In this document: positions 23,558 through 36,256 of the stretch, piece by piece
How positions within the stretch are numbered: position 1 is the stretch's first letter
Layout of the letters: every line of letters starts with the position of its first letter
NCBI GenBank assembly: GCA_023257035.1
Contig: JALRDI010000103.1
Span: forward strand, 1 to 36,913
Direction: 5' to 3'
Length of the DNA stretch: 36,913 nt
Source: Ilumatobacteraceae bacterium
GTDB lineage: Bacteria; Actinomycetota; Acidimicrobiia; Acidimicrobiales; Ilumatobacteraceae
Notes under the pieces: generated by a model
Seen by the model: the letters and a program-made list of their open reading frames with translations, nothing else
Told to the model about the DNA's origin: nothing
The model's database searches: none
Made by a program: the position numbers and the translations under genes

Positions 23558-24523
23558 TCAGCCATTAAAAAGATCACCAACGCGCGCTACATATTCTTGT
23601 GGATCTCGCATTTCAAAGACCGGCAGCATGAATTCACTCAAATTATGTGTCTCAACGAGACCGGAGATTTGTTCTCGACAGTCTTTTGCTGATCCGTGGA
23701 TTACGAAAGGCAACACCCAATCGTCAGTAACGTGGCGAGCAGCAACGTGTAGGCCGTCGCCCATGGCCGCACGAATACGGTCGACGTCATCTGGCGACAT
23801 TCCGATGAGCTCTTGAATTTCTTGTGGTGAATCGCACAGTCGATAGGTCATATGGGGGCGAACAGCTTCGAGGTCATCGTCATTCATGACAACGGCTGTC
23901 GAGTACGAAAGGGCAGCCGAATGCGTGGAGCTCTCCGAGGCCGTTCTCACAAGTTCCACCGAGTCAGAGAGCGTTGTTTCGTGAAGAAAATCAAGTATCA
24001 CGCCATCTGCAAGCTTTCCGCCAAGGGTTAGGACCTTTGGTCCGCGCCCGGCAATCCAAATTGGAATTTGAGGAAATGGACAGGCAAGTGTTGCGTGATG
24101 GAGCGAAACGGTTTCACCGTCGAATTCAACCTGCTGGCCCGACCACAGCGCACGACAGATTGTGATGAGTTCCTCCAACGCAATCACTGGGCGTGAGCGT
24201 GTCAGGCCTAATGCATCCAGCGTGAGTGAACCACCTGCACCAAAACCGGCAATCGCCCGCCCACCGCTCAACTCTCCGAGACTTGCAATCGCAGCGGCAG
24301 TCTGGCCGGGGTGCCGAGTAAATGGGTTGGTGATTCCTGGGCCGATACGTAGTGAAGTGGTACCTAAGGCAACTGCTGACGCAACGACGTACACATCGTG
24401 CGTTGCGAGGCCTTCGTCGTAGAGGCGACATGTCGCAAAACCTGCCTCTTCTGCGACTTTGGCAAGTTCGACAACTGCATCAATTGATCCATCAGGGATG
24501 ATGTTCAGCGCGAGCGACACCAT
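23558..24523 (-). CDS. LLM-class (probably F420-dependent) oxidoreductase
   Basis: LAKVAEEAGFATCRLYDEGL, GTTSLRIGPGITNPFTRHPGQTAAAIASLGELSGGRAIAGFGAGG. Confidence 0.88.
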   Translation of the reverse strand: MVSLALNIIPDGSIDAVVELAKVAEEAGFATCRLYDEGLATHDVYVVASAVALGTTSLRIGPGITNPFTRHPGQTAAAIASLGELSGGRAIAGFGAGGSLTLDALGLTRSRPVIALEELITICRALWSGQQVEFDGETVSLHHATLACPFPQIPIWIAGRGPKVLTLGGKLADGVILDFLHETTLSDSVELVRTASESSTHSAALSYSTAVVMNDDDLEAVRPHMTYRLCDSPQEIQELIGMSPDDVDRIRAAMGDGLHVAARHVTDDWVLPFVIHGSAKDCREQISGLVETHNLSEFMLPVFEMRDPQEYVARVGDLFNG

Positions 24524-24532
24524 GTCGCCAAC

Positions 24533-25264
24533 CTACCCAATGTGTTCGTACTCAATCGAGACCACCTCTGCGGTGGTGGACAATTCAGCCTGCAACTCTG
24601 CAACGAGACTGGCCGTGAGTCGGTCGTCCTCTTCGTGGGGAACTTTGGTGATGACAACGACCTTCCTTGACTCTTCGGGGCTGCCTTTCATCGAGCCGTC
24701 AGGAGAGGTCAGTACCGCTGCTGCGCGCTGTGGTGTGAGTCGTTCATAGGGACTGCAGGCTGCAACAGCCGCTACTCGTAGGGGGCGGTGGCATTGGTCG
24801 GCGATGACGCGACCGAGTGCGTCTGCACCTATCACGGCAAGCACCAACGTCGTTTGCGCTGGGAATACGGGCTCAAAATTTGCGGGAGCCTTAAACGGTC
24901 GATGTCGGGCTCCGTCGGCCTCTACGACGACGTTGTCGCACAGCGAAGCGTCACCGAACCAGTCATTGCACATTTCTGGTTGAACACCTATTGATTTTCG
25001 ATTTCGGACGGTTTGGCGCACGAATACAGGTTCTTGTTTGCGTCGATAGCGCAGAGCATCAAATGTCGGCCCCTCAATGACGGATAACCCGCCGGTTTGG
25101 TTCTCCCCCATTTTTGTTGTCGTCGTGGCAATCGTTGAACCTTGGAGAGTTCGAGCAAGTTGAAATAGCAGAGTCGACTTTCCACCACCGCCGACCAGCG
25201 AAATGAGTTCACGAGAATTCAACTGAAGTGCGTTAGCGAGGTGACTACTTGGGATGGGTGTCAT
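24533..25264 (-). CDS. yqeC: YqeC-like selenium-dependent molybdenum hydroxylase accessory protein
   Basis: LISLVGGGGKSTLLFQLARTLQGSTIATTTTKMG P-loop; VVEADGARHRPFKAP. Confidence 0.85.
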   Translation of the reverse strand: MTPIPSSHLANALQLNSRELISLVGGGGKSTLLFQLARTLQGSTIATTTTKMGENQTGGLSVIEGPTFDALRYRRKQEPVFVRQTVRNRKSIGVQPEMCNDWFGDASLCDNVVVEADGARHRPFKAPANFEPVFPAQTTLVLAVIGADALGRVIADQCHRPLRVAAVAACSPYERLTPQRAAAVLTSPDGSMKGSPEESRKVVVITKVPHEEDDRLTASLVAELQAELSTTAEVVSIEYEHIG

Positions 25265-26079
25265 TGTTGAAGTTTCAGTCGCCAGATCGCTTCGACAACG
25301 CCTCCGCCAATCGCTAAGGCCTTATCGGAAATTTGGTGGCAGGCGGATGGGTCATTTCTTGGGTCGATATCAGCGATTTTCAACCCGACCGTTACGTTCG
25401 AATGATCGGCGATGAGTCCTCGAACCATTCCCGTAAACGGCGCCACAACCTCACAACGTTCTTGGCCTTGGATGAAGCCCAATGGCGTTTCCGCTTCCAC
25501 CCAATCACCGATGTTCGAGAGCCACTCAACTACGCCATTCTCAGGCGCTCGAATGACGCGCTCTGATGACTTGCCTTCAATGACACCTGGACTCCCGGTG
25601 TTCGGTTCTGCCGAACCATCAAAAATGACTCGCCCAAGTCGATGGCCTCTCATGGTTTCGATAGCCGCATCGCAATGCTCGCCAACGACGAAACCCGGAC
25701 CGAGTCCGACGACGATCGGGGCATCGGAAATTGTCGTGTCAAGCGGACGTTTTGCGAGACGACAGTCAATTACAGCCGCGATGTTGTCGAGATCACCGAT
25801 ATCAGCGAGTGTGGGAGCAATGATGACGGGAATCTCGCCCAATTCCCAACTCCCGTATACGGCTGAGTCGTTCTCGCACTTTCGTCCGATGAGACCCTCG
25901 ACGCTCGTCACGCCATCTGTGATCGCCGTTGAGAGCGACACTGTTCGACGAATTGAAAGTGGCGAAGAAAGTTCCGTGACGAGCACACGAAATCCGCAGT
26001 GGTGAAGGCGCCATGCAACACCGGTGGCGATGTCGCCACCGCCGCGAAGAACGATGAGGTCATCGTGTGCTGGTCGCAC
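25261..26079 (-). CDS. yqeB: YqeB-like (EF2563 family) selenium-dependent molybdenum hydroxylase system protein
   Basis: LIVLRGGGDIATGVAWRLHHCGFRVLVTEL; VVGLGPGFVVGEHCDAAIETMRGHRLGRVI; GTG 26079 chosen as start (ORF start 26229 would overlap xdhC by about 170 bp). Confidence 0.85.
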   Translation of the reverse strand: MRPAHDDLIVLRGGGDIATGVAWRLHHCGFRVLVTELSSPLSIRRTVSLSTAITDGVTSVEGLIGRKCENDSAVYGSWELGEIPVIIAPTLADIGDLDNIAAVIDCRLAKRPLDTTISDAPIVVGLGPGFVVGEHCDAAIETMRGHRLGRVIFDGSAEPNTGSPGVIEGKSSERVIRAPENGVVEWLSNIGDWVEAETPLGFIQGQERCEVVAPFTGMVRGLIADHSNVTVGLKIADIDPRNDPSACHQISDKALAIGGGVVEAIWRLKLQQ

Positions 26080-26830
26080 GTACAACCTCGGCGATGATGC
26101 TGATGGCAATCTCCTCTGGAGTTTCGGCGCCGATTTCAAGGCCAATCGGGGTCGAAATTCTTTCGACGTCAGATTCCGTGCATCCCGCCTGCAACAGCGC
26201 CTCTTTCGTTGTGCCCCACCTACGAGCACTACCCATCAAGCCGATGTAGGCAGCCTCTTGGGAAACGATCAGCGGTACCAGTTCAACGTCGAGCGCCACG
26301 TTTCTCGTGACCATCACGATTGCTGCCCGTGAATCGAGAGGAATTTCTGAGAGAGCAGACTGAAGGTCGCCACTATGTCCGTTGACGCCATCAGGCATTG
26401 CCGAAAGTTGCTCGGCGCGGTCGTCCCATAGGTGAACACTCCACCCGCTCCATTTCGCGAGTTCAGCGACGGCCTTTCCAACATGTCCAGCGCCAATGAC
26501 AAGAAGTGTTGCGGTGTCCATATATGGCTCAACGTAGACGTCCATCTCTCCTCCGCACACACCGGGGTCACCTGTTGAGGGGTCCACAAGGCGATAGTTA
26601 ACGAGTCGTGGCTGGCCATCGGCCATGGCGGCCATGGCTTCATTGATCACCCTTGCTTCCATTTCGCCGCCACCGACTGTTCCCTCTCGGCTTCCATCAT
26701 CGAGGATGAGCATCGAAGCACCCACTCGCCGCGGAACAGAACGGTCAGTTCGAACGACAGTTGCAATTGCCGCCTTTTGGCCAGACTCGACGGCGTTCAA
26801 TGCTTGCGCAACGAGTTCTATCGACCCCAC
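26060..26830 (-). CDS. xdhC: XdhC family molybdenum cofactor insertion/maturation protein
   Basis: AAIATVVRTDRSVPRRVGASMLI, EGTVGGGEMEARVI, LLVIGAGHVGKAVAELAKWSGWSVHLWDDR, GLMGSARRW. Confidence 0.92.
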   Translation of the reverse strand: MGSIELVAQALNAVESGQKAAIATVVRTDRSVPRRVGASMLILDDGSREGTVGGGEMEARVINEAMAAMADGQPRLVNYRLVDPSTGDPGVCGGEMDVYVEPYMDTATLLVIGAGHVGKAVAELAKWSGWSVHLWDDRAEQLSAMPDGVNGHSGDLQSALSEIPLDSRAAIVMVTRNVALDVELVPLIVSQEAAYIGLMGSARRWGTTKEALLQAGCTESDVERISTPIGLEIGAETPEEIAISIIAEVVRATSTR

Positions 26831-28122
26831 AACCGACTCGCTTCCTCCCTGACTCGTGCCGTGGAGCGCTCAACGTCGATGCCAAGCACTTCTTTGTTTC
26901 GTACGCGCCACTCCCCTGCAACCATGACGTCTCGCACATGGTGCCCACTTCTCCAGAGCACCAATTGGTCGGCAATGGTTGACGGATCAATCGGCGTCGG
27001 TACGTCAATTTCAACGATTTGAAGATCGGCTATCCAATCAGGCTCAAGTCGACCCAAATTTTTGAGCCCAAGGGCTTGGGCTCCGCCTTCAGTTGCCATC
27101 TGGAGCACTTGGTGAGCTGGCGTGGACGATGGGTCAAGAAGTCGCGCCTTTTGCAGCCAGAACGCCCCTCGCATCACTTCGAACATGTCGTTGACATAGC
27201 CGTCAGTACCTAAGCCCACCGTGACGCCTTTGGACAGAAGTTCCGATATCGGAGCGATGCCCCCTCCAACTTCACAATTGGATAGTGGCATGTGACTCAC
27301 TCGAGTGTCACTGTTTGCAATGATGTCGAGTTCGCCGCTTGTCATCTGGACGCATTGGCTTGCGAGAAATGATGAACTTGTAACTCCGAGGTCTCGATAG
27401 AACGCCATCGTGTCGCAACCAAGATGTTCACGTGCCCAGTTTCCCTCGTGAGTGCCTTCGTTGCAGTGGGCGTGAAACCACGTATTTCTTGACCGGGCTT
27501 CCGCGGCCGCACGCTCGATGAATGATGATGAGCAGGTGAATACCGTGTGCCACGACATTGCGCCCGAGATGAGGTCATCGCCTTGATGTTGGTCGATGAA
27601 ATCGATGTTCTCTCTCAGTGAGAGCTCTGCGATCTCTGCGCCGGCGCGCTCGGTCGCCTCAAAGCTGAAGATCCCTCGGAGTCCGGCTCGACGGCATTGT
27701 TCTGCTTCTGTCTCGAGCACGCCGCTCAATGCTCCTGGGGCCTCGCAAATGTCAAAGAACGTTGTGGTCCCGGTTCGCAGCATCTCTGCGCAAACCCATT
27801 CAGAGGCTGCCGCAATCATCTGCTGATCAAGTCTGTCCTCAACTTGTGGCCACCAATAATCATCAAGAAAACTCTCAAAGCCGATGGGCGGTGTCTGAAC
27901 AACGATGCCATGAGCGAGCGTGCCATAGAGGTGGACGTGCGTGTTGACGAATCCGGGCAGGACAGCGCACCCGGATGCATCAATTACTTCTTCACCTGGA
28001 AATGTGGCGATGAGTTCGGACGCCGGGGCGATCGCGCTAACAGCGCCGTTGTCGATGCGAATTGCAACTGACGCCTCGGCATGTTCTGCCGATGTCACCA
28101 ACCAGTCAGGGCAGATAATCAT
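26818..28122 (-). CDS. ssnA: Amidohydrolase, SsnA-like
   Basis: LPGFVNTHVHLYGTLAHG, HAHCNEG, GLGTDGYVNDMFEVMR amidohydrolase metal motifs; placed next to xdhD-like gene as in E. coli. Confidence 0.8.
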   Translation of the reverse strand: MIICPDWLVTSAEHAEASVAIRIDNGAVSAIAPASELIATFPGEEVIDASGCAVLPGFVNTHVHLYGTLAHGIVVQTPPIGFESFLDDYWWPQVEDRLDQQMIAAASEWVCAEMLRTGTTTFFDICEAPGALSGVLETEAEQCRRAGLRGIFSFEATERAGAEIAELSLRENIDFIDQHQGDDLISGAMSWHTVFTCSSSFIERAAAEARSRNTWFHAHCNEGTHEGNWAREHLGCDTMAFYRDLGVTSSSFLASQCVQMTSGELDIIANSDTRVSHMPLSNCEVGGGIAPISELLSKGVTVGLGTDGYVNDMFEVMRGAFWLQKARLLDPSSTPAHQVLQMATEGGAQALGLKNLGRLEPDWIADLQIVEIDVPTPIDPSTIADQLVLWRSGHHVRDVMVAGEWRVRNKEVLGIDVERSTARVREEASRLWGR

Positions 28123-28125
28123 TGG

Positions 28126-31074
28126 CTACGAGGTGGCTGCTGATGAGTTCATTGCTCGCCAGACTCGCTCCGGGGTGAACGGAATCTCGTTGATCGAGAC
28201 ACCGACGGCGTTCTGAAGTGCATGTCGAAGAGCTGGAGCCACACCATCTTTTGGAATTTCTGCAACCGCTTTCGCGCCAAATGGCCCGCTGTCTTCCATG
28301 GTTTGCACGAGATACACGGCAGTTTCGGGCATTTCATCAGCTCGATAGATGTGATACGGCCCGAACGAATCGTTGATCATCTTGCCGTTGTCATCGAATG
28401 CGTATTCCTCGCAATGGGCGTACCCCAGCGCTTGGAGCATTCCGCCTTCAACTTGGCCTGATGCTGTCACCGGATTAATCGCCACACCACAGTCGACAGC
28501 CATGGCCATCTTCTTTACCGTGACCTGACCGGTGTCAATGTCGACCTCAATCTCGATGACTTGTGCCGCAAACGGAGGCGGGCACTCGGGCGACACGTAT
28601 GAGGCGGTACCCATGATCTGTTCCTGCTCTTGGGTGTGCAGCGAGTCAAGTGCGATGTCTTCCATAGAAACGGAACGACCATCTGGTGCGTACGCACGGC
28701 GGTCTCGCAGCTCGATAGAACAGGGTTGCTCGACTCCAAGAAGCATTGCGGCACGTTCTTTGATGCGCTCGCGAGCGGCCTCTGCTGCTCTCATTGCAGC
28801 GGTCCCGGAGATGTACGTCGTTGACGAGGCGTATGCCCCTGTGTCAAACGGTGTCATATCTGTGTCGCTCGAGTACACCTTGATGTCATCGAGTGGTACT
28901 CCAAGTACCTCTGCCGCAATCTGTCCGAGAACCGTGTCGGCACCAGTGCCCAGGTCGGTTGCCCCAACAAGCATGTTGAACGACCCGTCATCGTTCAACT
29001 TGATTGAGCATCCACCCATGTCGAGGAATGGGATGGCGGTTCCATGCATGCAATAGGCAAACCCAAGACCACGCCGAATGTTTGGTCGATCGCTTGGCTG
29101 ACGCCACTCAGGATCATCACGACGGTGCCATTCGATTTCACGAAGTGCTTGAGCGACGCACTCTTCTAGGCCAGTTGAGAGCACTCGGGGGTATTCATCG
29201 AGTTCTTCGTCGCTTGCTGCGCGTTCACCAAGGTGCGGTGCGATATTCAGTTCATCGCCAAGGCGCAGCCAGTTCTTACGCTTGAACTCGATCGAGTCGA
29301 AGCCGAGCTCGGCTGCGATGTCATCCATGTGGGCTTCAAGAGCGAATTCTGCCTGCGGTGCGCCGTATCCGCGATATGCACCGGGAACCGGAATGTTGGT
29401 GTACACCACATCACAACGGAACCTCTTGTTTGGGGCGTTGTACTGCGTGAGTCCTCGAAGTCCGGCCACAGTTTGAACCGTGTATCCATGCGTGCCGTAT
29501 GGGCCGGTATTTCCAATGATGTAGAGGTCTTGTGAAACCAATTTTCCTTCATCGTCAACCACTGTGGTGAACGTGAGCGTCTGCGGATGTCGCGTGCGGC
29601 TCCCGATGAATTCCTCTGAGCGATCAAGTTCAAGGCGAACCGGACGACGCGTTGCCTGAGCAAGGTGCCCGACGATGTCTTCAATGAGCATCTCTTGCTT
29701 CGCGCCAAACCCTCCCCCGATTCGAGGCTTCACGACGCGGATGTCCTTGATGTCTCGGTCAAGCAGAGGAGCAACCATACGTCGAGCGTGGAACGGAACC
29801 TGCGTGGCTGTGCGAATGACGAGACGCTCATCTTCGTCAAGCCAGGCGATCGAGATGTGCGGTTCAATCGGACACTGTTGCACCTGGTGCACCCTGAATG
29901 TCTGGGTGAACACATGGTGACCATTTGCTTCAGCTCGTTCAACCGCTCCAACAGGATCATTTCGTCGAGCTGCAATGTGATGCACGATATTTCGGTCACG
30001 GTCGTGAATTTCGACGGTGTCGCTCTCGTCGTGAATCACCACAACGCCGTCTGCCATCGAATCACGCTCATCGAAAATTGCTGGTAGCACTTCGTAGGTG
30101 ACGTTGATGAGTGAGCAGGCGTGGGCGGCAATCTCTGGTGATTCTGCCGCAACGACAGCGACTCGGTCACCGACGTGGCGAACCTTGTTATCAAAACTCA
30201 CTTGATCGTGCGGGTGGGGGTTCGGCCATGACTGGCCACCAGAGGCATATTTCACCCTGGGAGTGTTTTTGTAATGGAGAACTTCATGCACGCCAGGGAG
30301 TGATCGTGCCCCCGAATCATCAATATCGAGAATTCGAGCATGCGCGTGTGGGCTCCGTAACACTTTTGCGTAGAGCATGTTGCGCAGCTCAATGTCATCG
30401 GTAAATGCGGGATTTCCCTTGGCGAGACGAATCGCATCCACTTTGATTTCTGGCTTACCGACGACTGCCATCTCTGGTACGTCGCGAGATGGAATAACCC
30501 GTGGCACCGCAGCCGGAGCGACCGGTGGTGTATCGGATGGGTCGTATTCAGATGGTTCTCCTCCCTGGGTGAGTGAAGGAAGAATCACTGGAGCGAATGG
30601 CGCCGTTTCCTCTCCTCGCAGCACCGCCGCTGCACGGTGAATTGCTTCGACCGGCTTGACGTATGCGGTCTCTCTGTCGAGAATCCCTGAGAGCATGTCA
30701 CGAATTTGCGCCTCGGTTGGCGAGGGAGATTCATTTAGTAATGCGAGTGTTCCGAGCACCATTGCGCCGGCTGAATAACCAGACTGGAACGCTCCTGCAG
30801 CAACGAATGCGGCCTGAATTGGATGAAGTTCTGCACTCGTATTGAGAGACTCAACTGTGACGACCTCATGTCTGTCTGCTTGGACAGCAAGAATCACATC
30901 GCTACTTGCAAGACGGCCATCAAAAAGAACAGCACCGGCACCGGTCTCGCCGCTGTCAGAGCCGTAATGAACGCTGAACATTCCTTGGGAACGAAGAAAT
31001 GTGCGGAGTGTGTCGTGCACTTCACACTGGCCGTGCACGGTTCGCCCGTTGAGGGTAAGGGTGATCTGAGTCAC
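28126..31074 (-). CDS. xdhD: XdhD-like molybdenum hydroxylase: Fe-S-type N-terminal domain fused to molybdopterin-binding domain; Fe-S cysteines absent
   Basis: Mo domain: VKPRIGGGFGAKQEMLIEDI, VPGAYRGYGAPQAEFALE, DLGTGADTVLGQIAAEVLG, GPFGAKAVAEIPKDGVAPALRHAL. N-terminus aligns by eye to XdhA/CoxS-type [2Fe-2S] domains but lacks their Cys. Confidence 0.9.
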   Translation of the reverse strand: MTQITLTLNGRTVHGQCEVHDTLRTFLRSQGMFSVHYGSDSGETGAGAVLFDGRLASSDVILAVQADRHEVVTVESLNTSAELHPIQAAFVAAGAFQSGYSAGAMVLGTLALLNESPSPTEAQIRDMLSGILDRETAYVKPVEAIHRAAAVLRGEETAPFAPVILPSLTQGGEPSEYDPSDTPPVAPAAVPRVIPSRDVPEMAVVGKPEIKVDAIRLAKGNPAFTDDIELRNMLYAKVLRSPHAHARILDIDDSGARSLPGVHEVLHYKNTPRVKYASGGQSWPNPHPHDQVSFDNKVRHVGDRVAVVAAESPEIAAHACSLINVTYEVLPAIFDERDSMADGVVVIHDESDTVEIHDRDRNIVHHIAARRNDPVGAVERAEANGHHVFTQTFRVHQVQQCPIEPHISIAWLDEDERLVIRTATQVPFHARRMVAPLLDRDIKDIRVVKPRIGGGFGAKQEMLIEDIVGHLAQATRRPVRLELDRSEEFIGSRTRHPQTLTFTTVVDDEGKLVSQDLYIIGNTGPYGTHGYTVQTVAGLRGLTQYNAPNKRFRCDVVYTNIPVPGAYRGYGAPQAEFALEAHMDDIAAELGFDSIEFKRKNWLRLGDELNIAPHLGERAASDEELDEYPRVLSTGLEECVAQALREIEWHRRDDPEWRQPSDRPNIRRGLGFAYCMHGTAIPFLDMGGCSIKLNDDGSFNMLVGATDLGTGADTVLGQIAAEVLGVPLDDIKVYSSDTDMTPFDTGAYASSTTYISGTAAMRAAEAARERIKERAAMLLGVEQPCSIELRDRRAYAPDGRSVSMEDIALDSLHTQEQEQIMGTASYVSPECPPPFAAQVIEIEVDIDTGQVTVKKMAMAVDCGVAINPVTASGQVEGGMLQALGYAHCEEYAFDDNGKMINDSFGPYHIYRADEMPETAVYLVQTMEDSGPFGAKAVAEIPKDGVAPALRHALQNAVGVSINEIPFTPERVWRAMNSSAATS

Positions 31075-31778
31075 GACAATGCTCCGATCACTCGTTCACT
31101 GAGTTTGACGGCGAGATGGTGGCGATACTCACTGCTACCTCGGAAATCGTCGATTGGAATGATGTGCTCGACTTCGTCGACAGACGACACAGCGACCGGG
31201 GCAGAACTCACGCCGGTAAGAGAGATGATGAGCCCGTTCGCAGTAGCCCTACCCATCGCGGCGACGATGGGGGTATCCATTGGAGTCCGCCCGGTGTGCT
31301 CGAATGCCCAGCTTCCCGATGTATCGACATCGACTGCGACAATTAGGCCACGCGGATCTGAGAGGAACTTGACGAGATCTCGTATTTCCCCGTCATCAGT
31401 TTCAACAGTCGCAGAAGATGCGAGCAGCGCCGCAACAACAAGATTCTCACTTCCGGCAACAGCAACAGATCCTCCAACGGTCCCTATCGTCCGCAACGTT
31501 GATGGGAGTTCCCGTCGTGCGGCTTCACTGAGAAGATCGCCGTCAAAGGCTCCCACTACCTCAGAGAGGCGAACCATTGCCCCAATGGTGGCATGTGAGT
31601 TGTTGCGTGTCATCGAATCAAGTCCGAGCGACTGAAGATCAACGCCAATCAAGTCAGAACGGGACCGGTCAGCGTTAAGAACGGTTCCTCCTGCAAGAGG
31701 AACATGATGAGGCTGAGCAAGCAGGGAAACTGCTTCGCTCAACGTGTTGGGGCGGTGGTATCCGACAAGTAATGGCAC
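31071..31778 (-). CDS. ygfM: FAD-binding subunit of the molybdenum hydroxylase (YgfM/CoxM-like)
   Basis: YHRPNTLSEAVSLLAQPHHVPLAGGTVLNADRSRSDLIGVDLQSLGLD, ATIGAMVRLSEV, RTIGTVGGSVAVA; 4-bp overlap with the xdhD-like gene. Confidence 0.87.
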   Translation of the reverse strand: MPLLVGYHRPNTLSEAVSLLAQPHHVPLAGGTVLNADRSRSDLIGVDLQSLGLDSMTRNNSHATIGAMVRLSEVVGAFDGDLLSEAARRELPSTLRTIGTVGGSVAVAGSENLVVAALLASSATVETDDGEIRDLVKFLSDPRGLIVAVDVDTSGSWAFEHTGRTPMDTPIVAAMGRATANGLIISLTGVSSAPVAVSSVDEVEHIIPIDDFRGSSEYRHHLAVKLSERVIGALS

Positions 31779-31788
31779 GCCCTCGAAG

Positions 31789-33162
31789 TTAGCCCAGACG
31801 AGTGGAAATGCCCGCCTGCTGGAAGAGGGATGCAGCAGCAGACTTCGCCTGCTCGACTGCCTCGGCGATCGGAACAGAATGATGTTCGCCGTTTGCCACT
31901 ACGCGATTTCCTCGCACAAACACATCTCGCACATGTTGTGGGGCGCAGTTGAACACGATCGCACTCGGCACCCTATGTACTGGGGCAACTGCAGGGTGGT
32001 CGAGATTCACGACCACTAGGTCGGCTTCACGCCCTTCTTCGATTCTCCCGAGTCGATCTGACTCTCCGAAGGCCCGGGCACCTCCGACGCACGCCATTTC
32101 AATCGCCTCTTCGGGCTGTAACGCCATTGCGTTCAATTGGTGCACCTTTTGCAGCAGTACAGATATTTTCATCGCTTCGAAAAGGTCTTGACGATTATTA
32201 GAACCGGATCCGTCGCTTGCGAGAGCAACGGTGATGCCGCGTTCGCGCATGTCGAGGACCCGAGCAACACCTGATGCCAAGTACATATTTGAAACCGGGC
32301 AGTGCACCACCACAGCATCGGTTCGCGCAATGGCATCAAGTTCGGAGTCCTCTAGCCAGACTGAATGGGCGAGTTGGACGTCAGGGGCGAGTGCCCCCAC
32401 GCTTTCGAGCCAGGGAACATGACGCATTCCGCGTTCTTCGATACTCATCTCAACTTCGATGGCGGTCTCAGCACAATGAACATGAGTTCCCCGGCCCCAC
32501 GAACGCGCTGCGCCAATGGTTTCGGTCATTGCTTCATCAGAACAGCCCCACGGGATGAGTGGCCCGAGTTCGATCTTTATGCGTCCGTCATGCCCGTCCC
32601 ACTTATCAAAGGCTTGTTTGGCTCGCCGTATGGCAGTCGCCGCATCCTCTGCAAGCGGTTCGTGATAGTTCCGGTCGGCCCAGCCATGAGCAAGAAGAAG
32701 ACGAATTCCGAGTTCGTCGGCCGCTCGACAGACTGCATCGTCGATGAGGTCTCCCTCTGACCCTGGGTGGACATATTGATGATCGATGACGCTGGTGCAA
32801 CCCGTCAGCAGGTTCTCAAGCAGCCCGATTCTCGCCGCGTGATAGGCGATTTCAGGAGTGATGTGCTCAGCCGCTGGCCAAATGCAGTCGCGTAGCCAGT
32901 CGAGTAGTGGGCGATCATCGGCTAGGCCTCGAAAGAATGATTGGAAAAGATGGGTATGGGCATTTGTCATGCCGGGCATTACTGCGCAGCCGTTGGCGGA
33001 AATTACTTCACTGGCAGATGAGAGAAGATCACCTGATGGTTCACCGTTCCCGACTTGGGTGATCGTTCCATCGGTTATGAGAATCCAACCGGGATCAAGT
33101 ACCTCTGCCGTCTCGTTGACGGTGACGACAGCACCTCCGTGAATCAGGGTCGTCTTAGTCAT
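31789..33162 (-). CDS. Amidohydrolase, 8-oxoguanine deaminase/hydroxyatrazine hydrolase-like
   Basis: [55 protein letters not shown]; start set to ATG 33162 ([15 protein letters not shown]). Confidence 0.88.
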
Positions 33163-34183
33163 GGGGCGCCCATCCAGCGAACGCGTCAATCACTGGTTTG
33201 ATGTCGTCCATCATCGGGTACAAGATCGGGCACGTCACTCCTGCCTCGATGTATTCAGCCACCTTGTCCTGGCACTGAGCTGTCGTTCCAACGGCCATCA
33301 GCGAGCGAACCAAGGAATCAGGAATGAGGTGAGCAGCTTTCCGATAATCAGCCTCGGTGGCTGGCCATCCAACGACCTCTTTTACCCGCTCGACAAGTTC
33401 GGGGTCAGCTCCGCTCGCTTCCATGATGTGCGGTTCTGTGCCTAGGTAATACGCCACCAGCGATTTGCCGGTGAGGAGAGCTTCATCTGGATCATCGTCA
33501 GACAGTGAGCACACGAGAAGTTCTGGGCGATCAACTTCGTCAATGGTTTTGCCTGCACGTTGGGCCCCCGCCTCGACGAGGTCGACAGCAGATCTGATGT
33601 ACTCAGCAGAAACAACGTAATTGAGCACTACCCCATCGCAGATTTCTCCAGTGAGTTCCAACATTCTCGGTCCGGTTGCCCCGATGTAAATCGGGATATC
33701 CCTCGGAGAGGTATCGCCGTACGCTACGTCAAGCCGAACCCTGTCCAAATTGACGATCTCACCTTCATACGAGACTTCTTCCATAGTGAAAAGCGCACGA
33801 AGTGCTTCGACATGTTCTCGCATCGCCCGAAGCGGAATGCGACGATTTTCTCCGACCCGGCTCGTGATCGGTTCCCACCACGCGCCAATGCCGCACATCA
33901 CTCGTCCTTGCCCGTCGACGAGTCCACCAAGTTCCCACATCGTGCTCCACGTGGATGCGATAACTGCGGGGTTGCGGGTCCAGATGGGCAGTACTCCGGA
34001 GCCGATACGCATACGTTTCGTCTCAGCGAGGAGAGCGCTCATGAGAACGATGCAGTCCCGCGCGAGTCGAGTGTCCGCTTGCCAAATTTCTGAGAAGCCT
34101 CTCGACTCCGCGTATTTCGCCATCTCGATCTCATACGAGATCGGATGTTTGTCTTGGAGATAGAGGGCCATGCGTTGCGCCAT
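33155..34183 (-). CDS. LLM-class F420-dependent oxidoreductase (methylene-H4MPT reductase-like)
   Basis: [64 protein letters not shown]; start set to ATG 34183. Confidence 0.9.
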
Positions 34184-34193
34184 GGCGCCGACA

Positions 34194-35438
34194 CTACGGG
34201 ATGAGAGCTGGCAACTCACTCATCACAGAGGTGGTCGCCACCACACGGCCTCCTTTGAGTACGACTCGATCGGCAGGCGCCTCTGCGATTGCCTGTCGAA
34301 TTGTCGTTGCTCGAACTGCAAGTAGGTCTGCTGGCTCTCCAACGGCGATGTTGACCGTTGGAGCGCTGATGGCAGCCCTTGCGTTTGAACTGATTGTTGA
34401 AAACGCGTCAACTGGAAGCATGTGTCCTGCCATCACCATGAGGGCTGCAGTTTCGAACGGATCATTTCGCCCGACAAAGTTGAACGGGTCTTGCGCGTTG
34501 TCGGCGCCTGCAACCAAATTTACTCCTGCGGCGCGTAACGCATGAATGGCGGTGAGTCCACGCGGAGTGGCGACTGGATCATCTCGACCCTGCAAGAACA
34601 GGTTTGTTTGAGGAAGAGCCACAATTGAGATATCGGCCTCTGCAATCGCAGCTGCGAGCGGTTTGATTTGTTCGCTTGGAAGCATGCCAAGGCTGACGCA
34701 GTGGCTCGCGGTCGTTGAAATCTGCGAGCCACGTGAGTAGCGAATCACGTCGTTGATCGTTAGTGCTGTTGGGTCCAGTGTCTCATCGACGTGGAGGTCG
34801 ACCTTCCTTCCATGTCGCTCCGCGAGTTCGAACGCAATCGATACGCAGGCGTCAGAGTCTGGTTCGAGGTGCGGGCACCCACCGATGACCTCTACACCAA
34901 GTTCGATCGCTTCGTTGAGTGCAATGAGGTTGAGGTCGCTCCCCTCTCCACTCATCGGCATATATGTCAACGCAACGAACTCGATGTCCATACGGTCTCG
35001 ATACCTCTGGGCGGCCTCAATCGCTGCCACGAGGTAACGAGTTGAGACCGGTCCACCAACATTCACGTGGCTGCGCACGAGTGTTACGCCACTTTTGAGG
35101 AGCATTTCTAATGAACGAGAAATTCTCTGAACCATTTCGTCATGTGCAATAACTCCTGACGATTCAGCTTCTCTCCATCCAACGATCGCCCCCATTAAGT
35201 CACCCTTCGGGTTCGGAACGACATCGGCGGTGAGTGACTTATCGAGATGGGCATGAGGCTCGACGAGCGATGGCAGAAGAAGACGCCCTTCCAATTCGAC
35301 CACTGTGAGGTTGTCGCTCACGACATCTTCACGCCTCTCTGACATCGCGACAATCGTTCCCGAAGAATCAACCAGAATGTGCGGCTTGCTGCCATCGACG
35401 AGGATGCCACCTGAAAGAAGTGTGCGGGGTTGGGTCAT
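34194..35438 (-). CDS. Amidohydrolase, cytosine deaminase-like
   Basis: [59 protein letters not shown] match CodA/AtzC-type motifs. Confidence 0.88.
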
Positions 35439-35447
35439 GGTCGCATC

Positions 35448-35463
35448 CTACGCGTCAGCGTAG
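35448..35463. promoter_or_regulatory. Candidate operator in the 35-bp divergent intergenic region
   Basis: Perfect inverted repeat CTACGC-GTCA-GCGTAG between start codons at 35438 (-) and 35474 (+). Confidence 0.4.
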
Positions 35464-35473
35464 ATTCGTGAGA

Positions 35474-36256
35474 ATGAAAGCAACAGAGAGTCGACGTTAC
35501 GCAGACATCGTTGGGCCAGATATCGGAGAGGTCATTACCGAAGGCTCAACTCTGATTCTTCCTGTAGGCGCGGTTGAACAACATGGACCACATCTTCCGA
35601 TGTCGGTGGATGACGTCATTGCAACCGAAACAGCAACTGAGGTCGTGCAGCGTTTTGGGTCAGATCTTGACCTTTGGCAGTTGCCGTCGCTTTCGATTTC
35701 GAAATCAAATGAACATGCATGGAGCGCTGGAACTCTGTGGTACTCGGCAGAAACGATGATGGCGGTTCTTCGCGATATCGGTCGTTCGATCTCAACGACC
35801 AGGGCGGAGCGTCTCGTACTGCTGAATGGTCATGGTGGGAACACCACCCTTCTCGTAACGGCGCTCCGAGAGTTGCGTCTTGCGTATGGATTGAAGACGT
35901 TTCTGGTTCATCCGTCCCTCCCCCCTGCATACGGCGGGTCATCAACCGAAGATGAACTCGGCATGGGAATTCATGGCGGTCTAAATGAGACGTCAGTATT
36001 CATGCATTTGCGCCCGGACCTTGTCGACCTCTCGAGAGCTGAACGAAAGGTTCCAGAAGCACTCGCGGAGAATGAACATGTGAAGTTCGGCGGTTCGGTG
36101 TCATTTGGTTGGCTCTCTAACGACTTCGACGAAGCTGGGTACATCGGCGACCCGACGGGAGCATCTGCTGAACGCGGTTCCGAGCTCTTTGAACACGCTG
36201 TTAATCGTCTTGGCGATCAGATGGCTGAGATTGCTGAATTCGATTTTGGGCGTTGA
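35474..36256 (+). CDS. Creatininase family protein
   Basis: LILPVGAVEQHGPHLPMSVDDVIATETATEV, LVLLNGHGGNTTLL, HGGLNETS; start set to ATG 35474 (ORF start 35420 overlaps the divergent gene). Confidence 0.92.
   Translation: MKATESRRYADIVGPDIGEVITEGSTLILPVGAVEQHGPHLPMSVDDVIATETATEVVQRFGSDLDLWQLPSLSISKSNEHAWSAGTLWYSAETMMAVLRDIGRSISTTRAERLVLLNGHGGNTTLLVTALRELRLAYGLKTFLVHPSLPPAYGGSSTEDELGMGIHGGLNETSVFMHLRPDLVDLSRAERKVPEALAENEHVKFGGSVSFGWLSNDFDEAGYIGDPTGASAERGSELFEHAVNRLGDQMAEIAEFDFGR

Follow-up and report, generated by a model that had tools for sequence, protein, structure and literature searches.

A clade of XdhD-like molybdenum hydroxylases with a retained double ferredoxin fold and no cluster-ligand cysteines

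The analysed DNA, a contig of 36,913 nucleotides from an Ilumatobacteraceae bacterium (the window), carries an xdhD-like gene whose product lacks all eight cysteines that ligate the two [2Fe-2S] clusters of the xanthine oxidase family, and an entire clade of orthologues shares this loss. The gene (28126..31074, reverse strand, GTG start) encodes 982 amino acids, with an N-terminal double-ferredoxin-fold module fused to molybdenum domains. We favour, with a probability of roughly 0.6, the reading that the protein is the molybdenum subunit of a cluster-free urate dehydroxylase that belongs to a reductive uric acid pathway and whose ferredoxin module would persist as a conserved scaffold. Two [2Fe-2S] clusters with eight cysteine ligands belong to the general description of the family (PMC3958847), and both the window clade and E. 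coli XdhD depart from it, with the ligand sets gone and, apparently, both a functional molybdenum site and the flavin subunit kept. Papers from 2025 place XdhD at the start of uric acid breakdown in the gut and leave the ligand loss unmentioned in their searchable main text; the word "cysteine" is absent from the main text of PMC12507026, and the RefSeq name of E. coli XdhD is still that of a Mo/Fe-S-binding subunit. No paper mentioning the missing ligands was found in the accessible main texts that were searched, and an earlier notice is possible. The missing ligands make the electron route of this medically discussed enzyme a question that can be tested in E. coli.

Ligand positions and fold of the N-terminal module

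The ligand sites were assigned by alignment to E. coli XdhC, in which the canonical cysteines are C44, C49, C52, C64, C103, C106, C140 and C142. Residues 1-150 of the window protein are encoded by the stretch 31074-30625. In the ferredoxin-like domain (residues 1-76; 30847..31074, reverse strand), the sites of Cys1-4 are occupied by S39 (30960-30958), T44 (30945-30943), G47 (30936-30934) and D59 (30900-30898). In the helical domain, assigned to Fer2_2 by Pfam (residues 77-150; 30625..30846, reverse strand), those of Cys5-8 are occupied by S98 (30783-30781), S101 (30774-30772), D133 (30678-30676) and E135 (30672-30670). The count of ligand cysteines is thus 0/8, and the eight substitutions are exactly those listed in the original prediction. 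The two-cluster, eight-cysteine arrangement is likewise absent from 41/41 orthologues. The sole cysteine of the N-domain, C17, lies at a non-ligand position and is found in 27/41 orthologues; replacement cysteines elsewhere in this domain were rejected on these grounds. C554, C675, C862 and C888 of the molybdenum domain are common within the cysteine-free clade, and a substitute cluster site built from them was also rejected: they cannot be tied to the ligand loss because some sisters with eight ligand cysteines have them too. No separate Fe-S subunit was found among the identified ORFs of the window. It follows from the sequence that electron transfer through the usual two clusters would be ruled out for the window protein, and we infer that it binds no cluster.

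A total of 80 loci were retrieved from public genomes; the set was collected by means of molybdenum-domain motifs, and most of its sequences are metagenome-assembled. The 41 aligned cysteine-free orthologues come mainly from Acidimicrobiia and Chloroflexota, and E. coli is excluded from this count. S39, S98, D133 and E135 are invariant (41/41), T44 is present in 40/41, site 59 holds Asp in 33/41 and Glu in 8/41, and variation is seen at site 47 (G/A/S) and also at site 101. Ten positions across the whole protein are near-fixed in the window clade, differ in all sisters with eight cysteines and are rare elsewhere; four of these ten are ligand sites. Eleven genomes of the genus and order of the window carry the gene at 78-95% identity, and the same-genus assemblies (81-95% identity) are cysteine-free at the ligand sites. 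A sequencing error or a frameshift, the latter already thought unlikely at the first cluster in the original prediction, was excluded, as 41 orthologues from separate assemblies lack cysteines at the same sites. A search for viral homologues returned none.

The original prediction of a retained double [2Fe-2S] fold and intact molybdenum-domain motifs was borne out. Pfam recognised Fer2_2 at residues 73-146 (E=7e-18), as well as the molybdenum-domain families PF01315, PF02738 and PF20256. The molybdenum-binding part (from about residue 201 to 982; 28126..30474, reverse strand) contains GGGFGAKQ at 453, GAYRGYG at 565, E617 and, within GAKAVAE, the catalytic glutamate E939 expected of a cofactor domain of this family. 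An AlphaFold2 model, for which the window and locus sequences served as input, had a mean pLDDT of 87.4 and a pTM of 0.89, with values of about 77-96 per ten-residue block in the N-terminal 150 residues. The best PDB matches of the model in Foldseek were 1sij (TM 0.81) and 1dgj (TM 0.79, both query-normalised), complete Desulfovibrio aldehyde oxidoreductases with two [2Fe-2S] domains. These enzymes and xanthine oxidase share the overall fold of the window protein; however, their two clusters link molybdenum to flavin or an external acceptor, whereas the window protein is without both ligand sets. The best NCBIfam match was TIGR03313 (XdhD, molybdopterin-dependent oxidoreductase Mo/Fe-S-binding subunit), with 633.2 bits, below the curated cut-off of 1101.9.

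The N-domain is under purifying selection, with a dN/dS of 0.05-0.10 in unsaturated same-genus pairs; it evolves faster than the molybdenum domain (about 0.01-0.02 among relatives), and its ferredoxin half is the fastest. Purifying selection together with the near-fixed replacements indicates that the N-terminal module is maintained, with specific replacements, rather than decaying. A non-catalytic relic or pseudoenzyme could be proposed from the loss of the electron-transfer ligands and the somewhat weaker constraint on the N-domain, but it is hardly credible given the strong constraint on the molybdenum domain, the intact catalytic glutamate and cofactor motifs, the conserved operon and the activity of the E. 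coli counterpart (PMC12507026).

Repeated loss of the ligand sets among relatives

In a sampling of Chloroflexota, a strong match was obtained in 81/399 genomes, and ligand positions were read in the fused homologues. Five ligand states were distinguished by the cysteines left in the ferredoxin and helical sets: all eight, 0+4, 4+0, one residual cysteine (STADSSCE) and none. The 0+4 state was read in 24 sequences, each of which has Asp at both position 1 and position 3; L077 (DTDS) branches apart from the rest of them in the tree. The Chloroflexota clade of this state reading DSDG CCCC (L138, L139, L144 and others) resembles the window protein in being fused and in the replacement of the whole ferredoxin-domain set, but differs in that the helical-domain cysteines, beside the pterin, are kept. 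The 4+0 state (CCCC SDSE) was seen in one Chloroflexota genome only, that of L149 (L218 / L149, G257:C133). The related genomes thus form a natural series (8, 4+0, 0+4, 0+1 and 0 Cys) for probing the role of each cluster.

The phylogeny was inferred from the molybdenum domain only, by a quick IQ-TREE run with SH-aLRT support in which some inner branches are open; since the N-domain was not used, the tree is blind to the ligand trait. The clade with no or one cysteine adjoins, with full support, four proteins with eight cysteines. These Chloroflexota sisters (L068, L135, L136, L182) have the same domain order and 51-57% local identity, but both of their cluster sites are intact. E. coli XdhD grouped with eight-cysteine relatives from Spirochaetes and Dependentiae. 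Its closest relatives found (Dependentiae, Spirochaetes and Fusobacteria; 45-55% identity) have all eight cysteines, among them a protein of Cetobacterium somerae (Fusobacteriota) that is 45% identical. A single loss common to the window clade and E. coli XdhD was rejected by the AU test when the latter was forced into the window clade (p-AU 1.7e-9), and so was a single loss common to the window and 0+4 clades (p-AU 2e-63). On this tree, the ferredoxin set must have been lost at least four times and the helical set at least three times. The window and E. coli losses are independent, because the nearest relatives of each keep all eight cysteines. Read from sequences and tree, the ligand sets have been lost independently, cluster by cluster, several times in related bacteria.

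The statement in the original prediction that these cysteines are missing from E. coli XdhD as well proved correct for all eight, its sites reading DADSSNSD by alignment. The suggestion of a family trait rather than a local loss held in part: the state is clade-wide in the 41 orthologues, but E. coli acquired it separately. Among the sequences read, the loss of the E. coli type was confined to that species; a match to at least 80% of the initial 484 bases of xdhD was present in 5155/5426 complete genomes, with an identity of 95% or higher in nearly every case.

In the three independent losses of the helical-domain set, position 5 became Ser and position 8 acidic each time, a number too small for a test. 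These recurrent replacements fit side chains that would take over the hydrogen bonds of the lost anionic cluster. The same recurrence, with the invariance of S98, D133 and E135 noted above, might instead reflect vacated pockets occupied by a metal ion or an atypical cluster with Ser, Asp and Glu as ligands. We consider this very improbable, as positions 47 and 101 vary, and acidic or hydroxyl side chains could merely pair with the backbone amides to which the anionic cluster was once bound; moreover, we know of no [2Fe-2S] site with four non-cysteine ligands.

Some further features of these groups were recorded. The DSDG CCCC clade contains L138, L139, L141, L142, L144, L145, L150-L159, L161-L163, L168, L169, L186 and L197; its ferredoxin-domain ligand motif has become an almost fixed GDExGL(S/T)GAD, the pterin-side cysteines being kept, and no SsnA or luciferase-family neighbours were present in 12 loci examined. 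No FAD-subunit homologue was found adjoining the CCCC SDSE gene (L218 / L149). In four eight-cysteine sisters (L136, L182, L184 and L185), an inserted segment, several to roughly 20 residues long, separates Cys3 from Cys4.

Gene neighbourhood and probable role in urate reduction

The xdhD-like gene is preceded by a gene for a FAD-binding subunit of the YgfM/CoxM type (31071..31778, reverse strand, 235 aa; PF00941, AGGT and TVGG flavin motifs), the stop of which overlaps the xdhD start by four bases. An SsnA-like amidohydrolase (26818..28122, reverse strand) matched NF005540 and TIGR03314 best, with 262 and 257 bits, below their cut-offs. On the same strand lie genes for YqeB, a selenium-dependent molybdenum hydroxylase accessory protein (25261..26229; TIGR03309, 303.7 bits against a cut-off of 220, with the first 58 or so residues outside the match), the selenium cofactor protein YqeC (24533..25264; TIGR03172, 159.8 bits against 73) and an XdhC/CoxI-family maturation protein (26060..26830; PF13478, PF02625). 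SelD is encoded elsewhere in the genome (C265, 337.8 bits), which completes the YqeB, YqeC and SelD set of selenium-dependent molybdenum hydroxylases. The remaining reverse-strand genes encode an amidohydrolase resembling deoxyadenosine/8-oxoguanine deaminases (31789..33189), a luciferase-family protein, probably an F420-dependent oxidoreductase (33155..34219), an Amidohydro_3-type hydrolase resembling cytosine deaminases (34194..35438) and, at the far end of the cluster, a second luciferase-family protein (23558..24523). A creatininase-family amidohydrolase (35420..36256) is encoded on the opposite, forward strand. YqeB and XdhC/CoxI are separate genes in the window (25261-26830); an archaeal fusion of the two has been described (PMC2276186).

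Among the cysteine-free loci with enough flank, a FAD-subunit gene was nearby in 17/17, an SsnA-type amidohydrolase in 12, YqeB in 13 and YqeC in 12. Copies of the luciferase-family gene at 33155..34219 adjoin xdhD in related loci at 74-85% identity. Two cysteine-free xdhD genes adjoin homologues of YgeW, YgeY and HyuA (L054) or of YgeW, YgeY and YqeA (L082). In the loci examined from the sister clade with one residual cysteine, none of these neighbours was present, including an adjacent FAD subunit. Two loci of that clade (L219, L220) have a dihydroorotate dehydrogenase-like gene upstream of xdhD in place of the FAD subunit (PRK07565 type in L219), and L219 has a hypoxanthine phosphoribosyltransferase gene downstream.

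The E. coli XdhD-YgfM system is similar in its fused N-module and molybdenum domain, its 0/8 cysteines, its adjacent FAD subunit and the SsnA, YqeB and YqeC genes of its cluster. The two XdhD proteins are 37% identical and carry independent replacements (DADSSNSD versus STGDSSDE). E. coli XdhD and YgfM reportedly form 2,8-dioxopurine (yanthine) from uric acid at the expense of NADH, after which YgfK and SsnA act (PMC12507026). Whereas the E. coli cluster has YgfK, none was recognised among the identified window proteins; luciferase-family proteins are encoded there instead. In published Chloroflexota clusters, luciferase-family (F420-type, PF00296) proteins replace YgfK (PMC12507026), and the gene product of 33155..34219 is a candidate stand-in for this yanthine reductase. 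E606 of E. coli XdhD was named as a likely urate-orienting residue (PMC12507026). Its equivalent in the window protein is E617; all 42 cysteine-free sequences, counting that of E. coli, have Glu at this site, which E. coli XdhA lacks. The same Glu is frequent among eight-cysteine relatives, and therefore marks a wider XdhD-like group and not the cysteine-free clade.

Because the neighbours (the SsnA-like gene and the luciferase-family gene at 33155-34219 in particular), SelD and E617 parallel the published XdhD pathway, the window protein probably takes oxygen off uric acid in a reductive, yanthine-forming route. Counting against a urate dehydroxylase are the TIGR03313 score under its cut-off and the lack of pathway neighbours in the one-cysteine sister clade.

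The FAD subunit and the route of electrons to molybdenum

In the known family, electrons move between molybdenum and flavin via the two clusters (PMC12316806; PMC3958847). The tunnelling ruler gives a rate of about 1 per s near 20-22 Å and far lower rates beyond. In known enzymes the flavin lies beyond both clusters, too far from molybdenum for useful tunnelling with the usual docking. A cluster-free enzyme would therefore need a closer flavin, another donor at molybdenum, slow turnover or a redox-neutral reaction. The window FAD subunit was modelled with a pLDDT of 91.0, with low confidence at the AGGT loop only, and its best PDB match was the CO dehydrogenase flavoprotein 1ffv_C. The AGGT and T(I/V)GG motifs are nearly always retained in the FAD subunits of cysteine-free loci. 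For E. coli, a YgfM-sized protein co-purified with XdhD (PMC12507026), and a commentary gives an ipTM of 0.94 for an AlphaFold3 XdhD-YgfM complex (PMC12990295).

In the urate dehydroxylase that we favour, the double-ferredoxin module would act as a folded, cofactor-free scaffold that keeps the FAD subunit in contact with the molybdenum domain, and the polar or acidic residues S39, T44, D59, S98, D133 and E135 would fill the vacated cluster pockets. The electron source for molybdenum would be the FAD subunit, or another donor docked at that site, and the two-cluster wire would be bypassed; of the possible routes, a direct one from the FAD subunit or the site where it binds is ranked first, if weakly. 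A cluster-free enzyme of the xanthine oxidase family, in which either a FAD subunit docked in a new position passes electrons straight from flavin to molybdenum or the reaction is a redox-neutral transhydroxylation, is a tentative proposal, with the odds somewhat against it; to our knowledge, such a mode of action would have no precedent in the family.

In a transhydroxylase or isomerase, hydroxylation of xanthine at C8 would feed dehydroxylation of urate at C6, for a net conversion of xanthine to yanthine, and external electrons, clusters and flavin turnover would all be unneeded. Such a reaction would give a direct reason for the repeated dispensability of both clusters, xanthine and yanthine are isomers, and the molybdenum-site motifs are intact. 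It is nonetheless improbable, since a FAD subunit with nearly always conserved flavin motifs stands beside every cysteine-free gene checked, and the E. coli enzyme reportedly formed yanthine from urate and NADH when no purine donor was supplied (PMC12507026).

The molybdenum cofactor might instead receive its electrons directly from an external carrier: a ferredoxin, a flavoprotein or an F420H2-dependent partner would bind the ferredoxin module or the molybdenum domain, and the role of the FAD subunit would be structural only. F420-type luciferase-family proteins within the cluster would suit this arrangement, as would the dihydroorotate dehydrogenase-like gene that takes the place of an adjacent FAD subunit in the one-cysteine clade, and the commentary on XdhD-YgfM lists the native donor for XdhAC, the clostridial homologue, as unknown (PMC12990295). 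We regard it as unlikely, because no conserved docking gene was found across all loci, the cysteine-free clade has kept its FAD motifs, and NADH reportedly sufficed in vitro for the E. coli pair XdhD-YgfM (PMC12507026).

Two of the eight-cysteine sisters (L068 and L135) have a recognisable adjacent FAD subunit in which the first flavin motif is altered, SLGPK or MFGPR standing for AGGT. This pattern is the reverse of that in the window clade, where the clusters are gone but the flavin motifs are kept.
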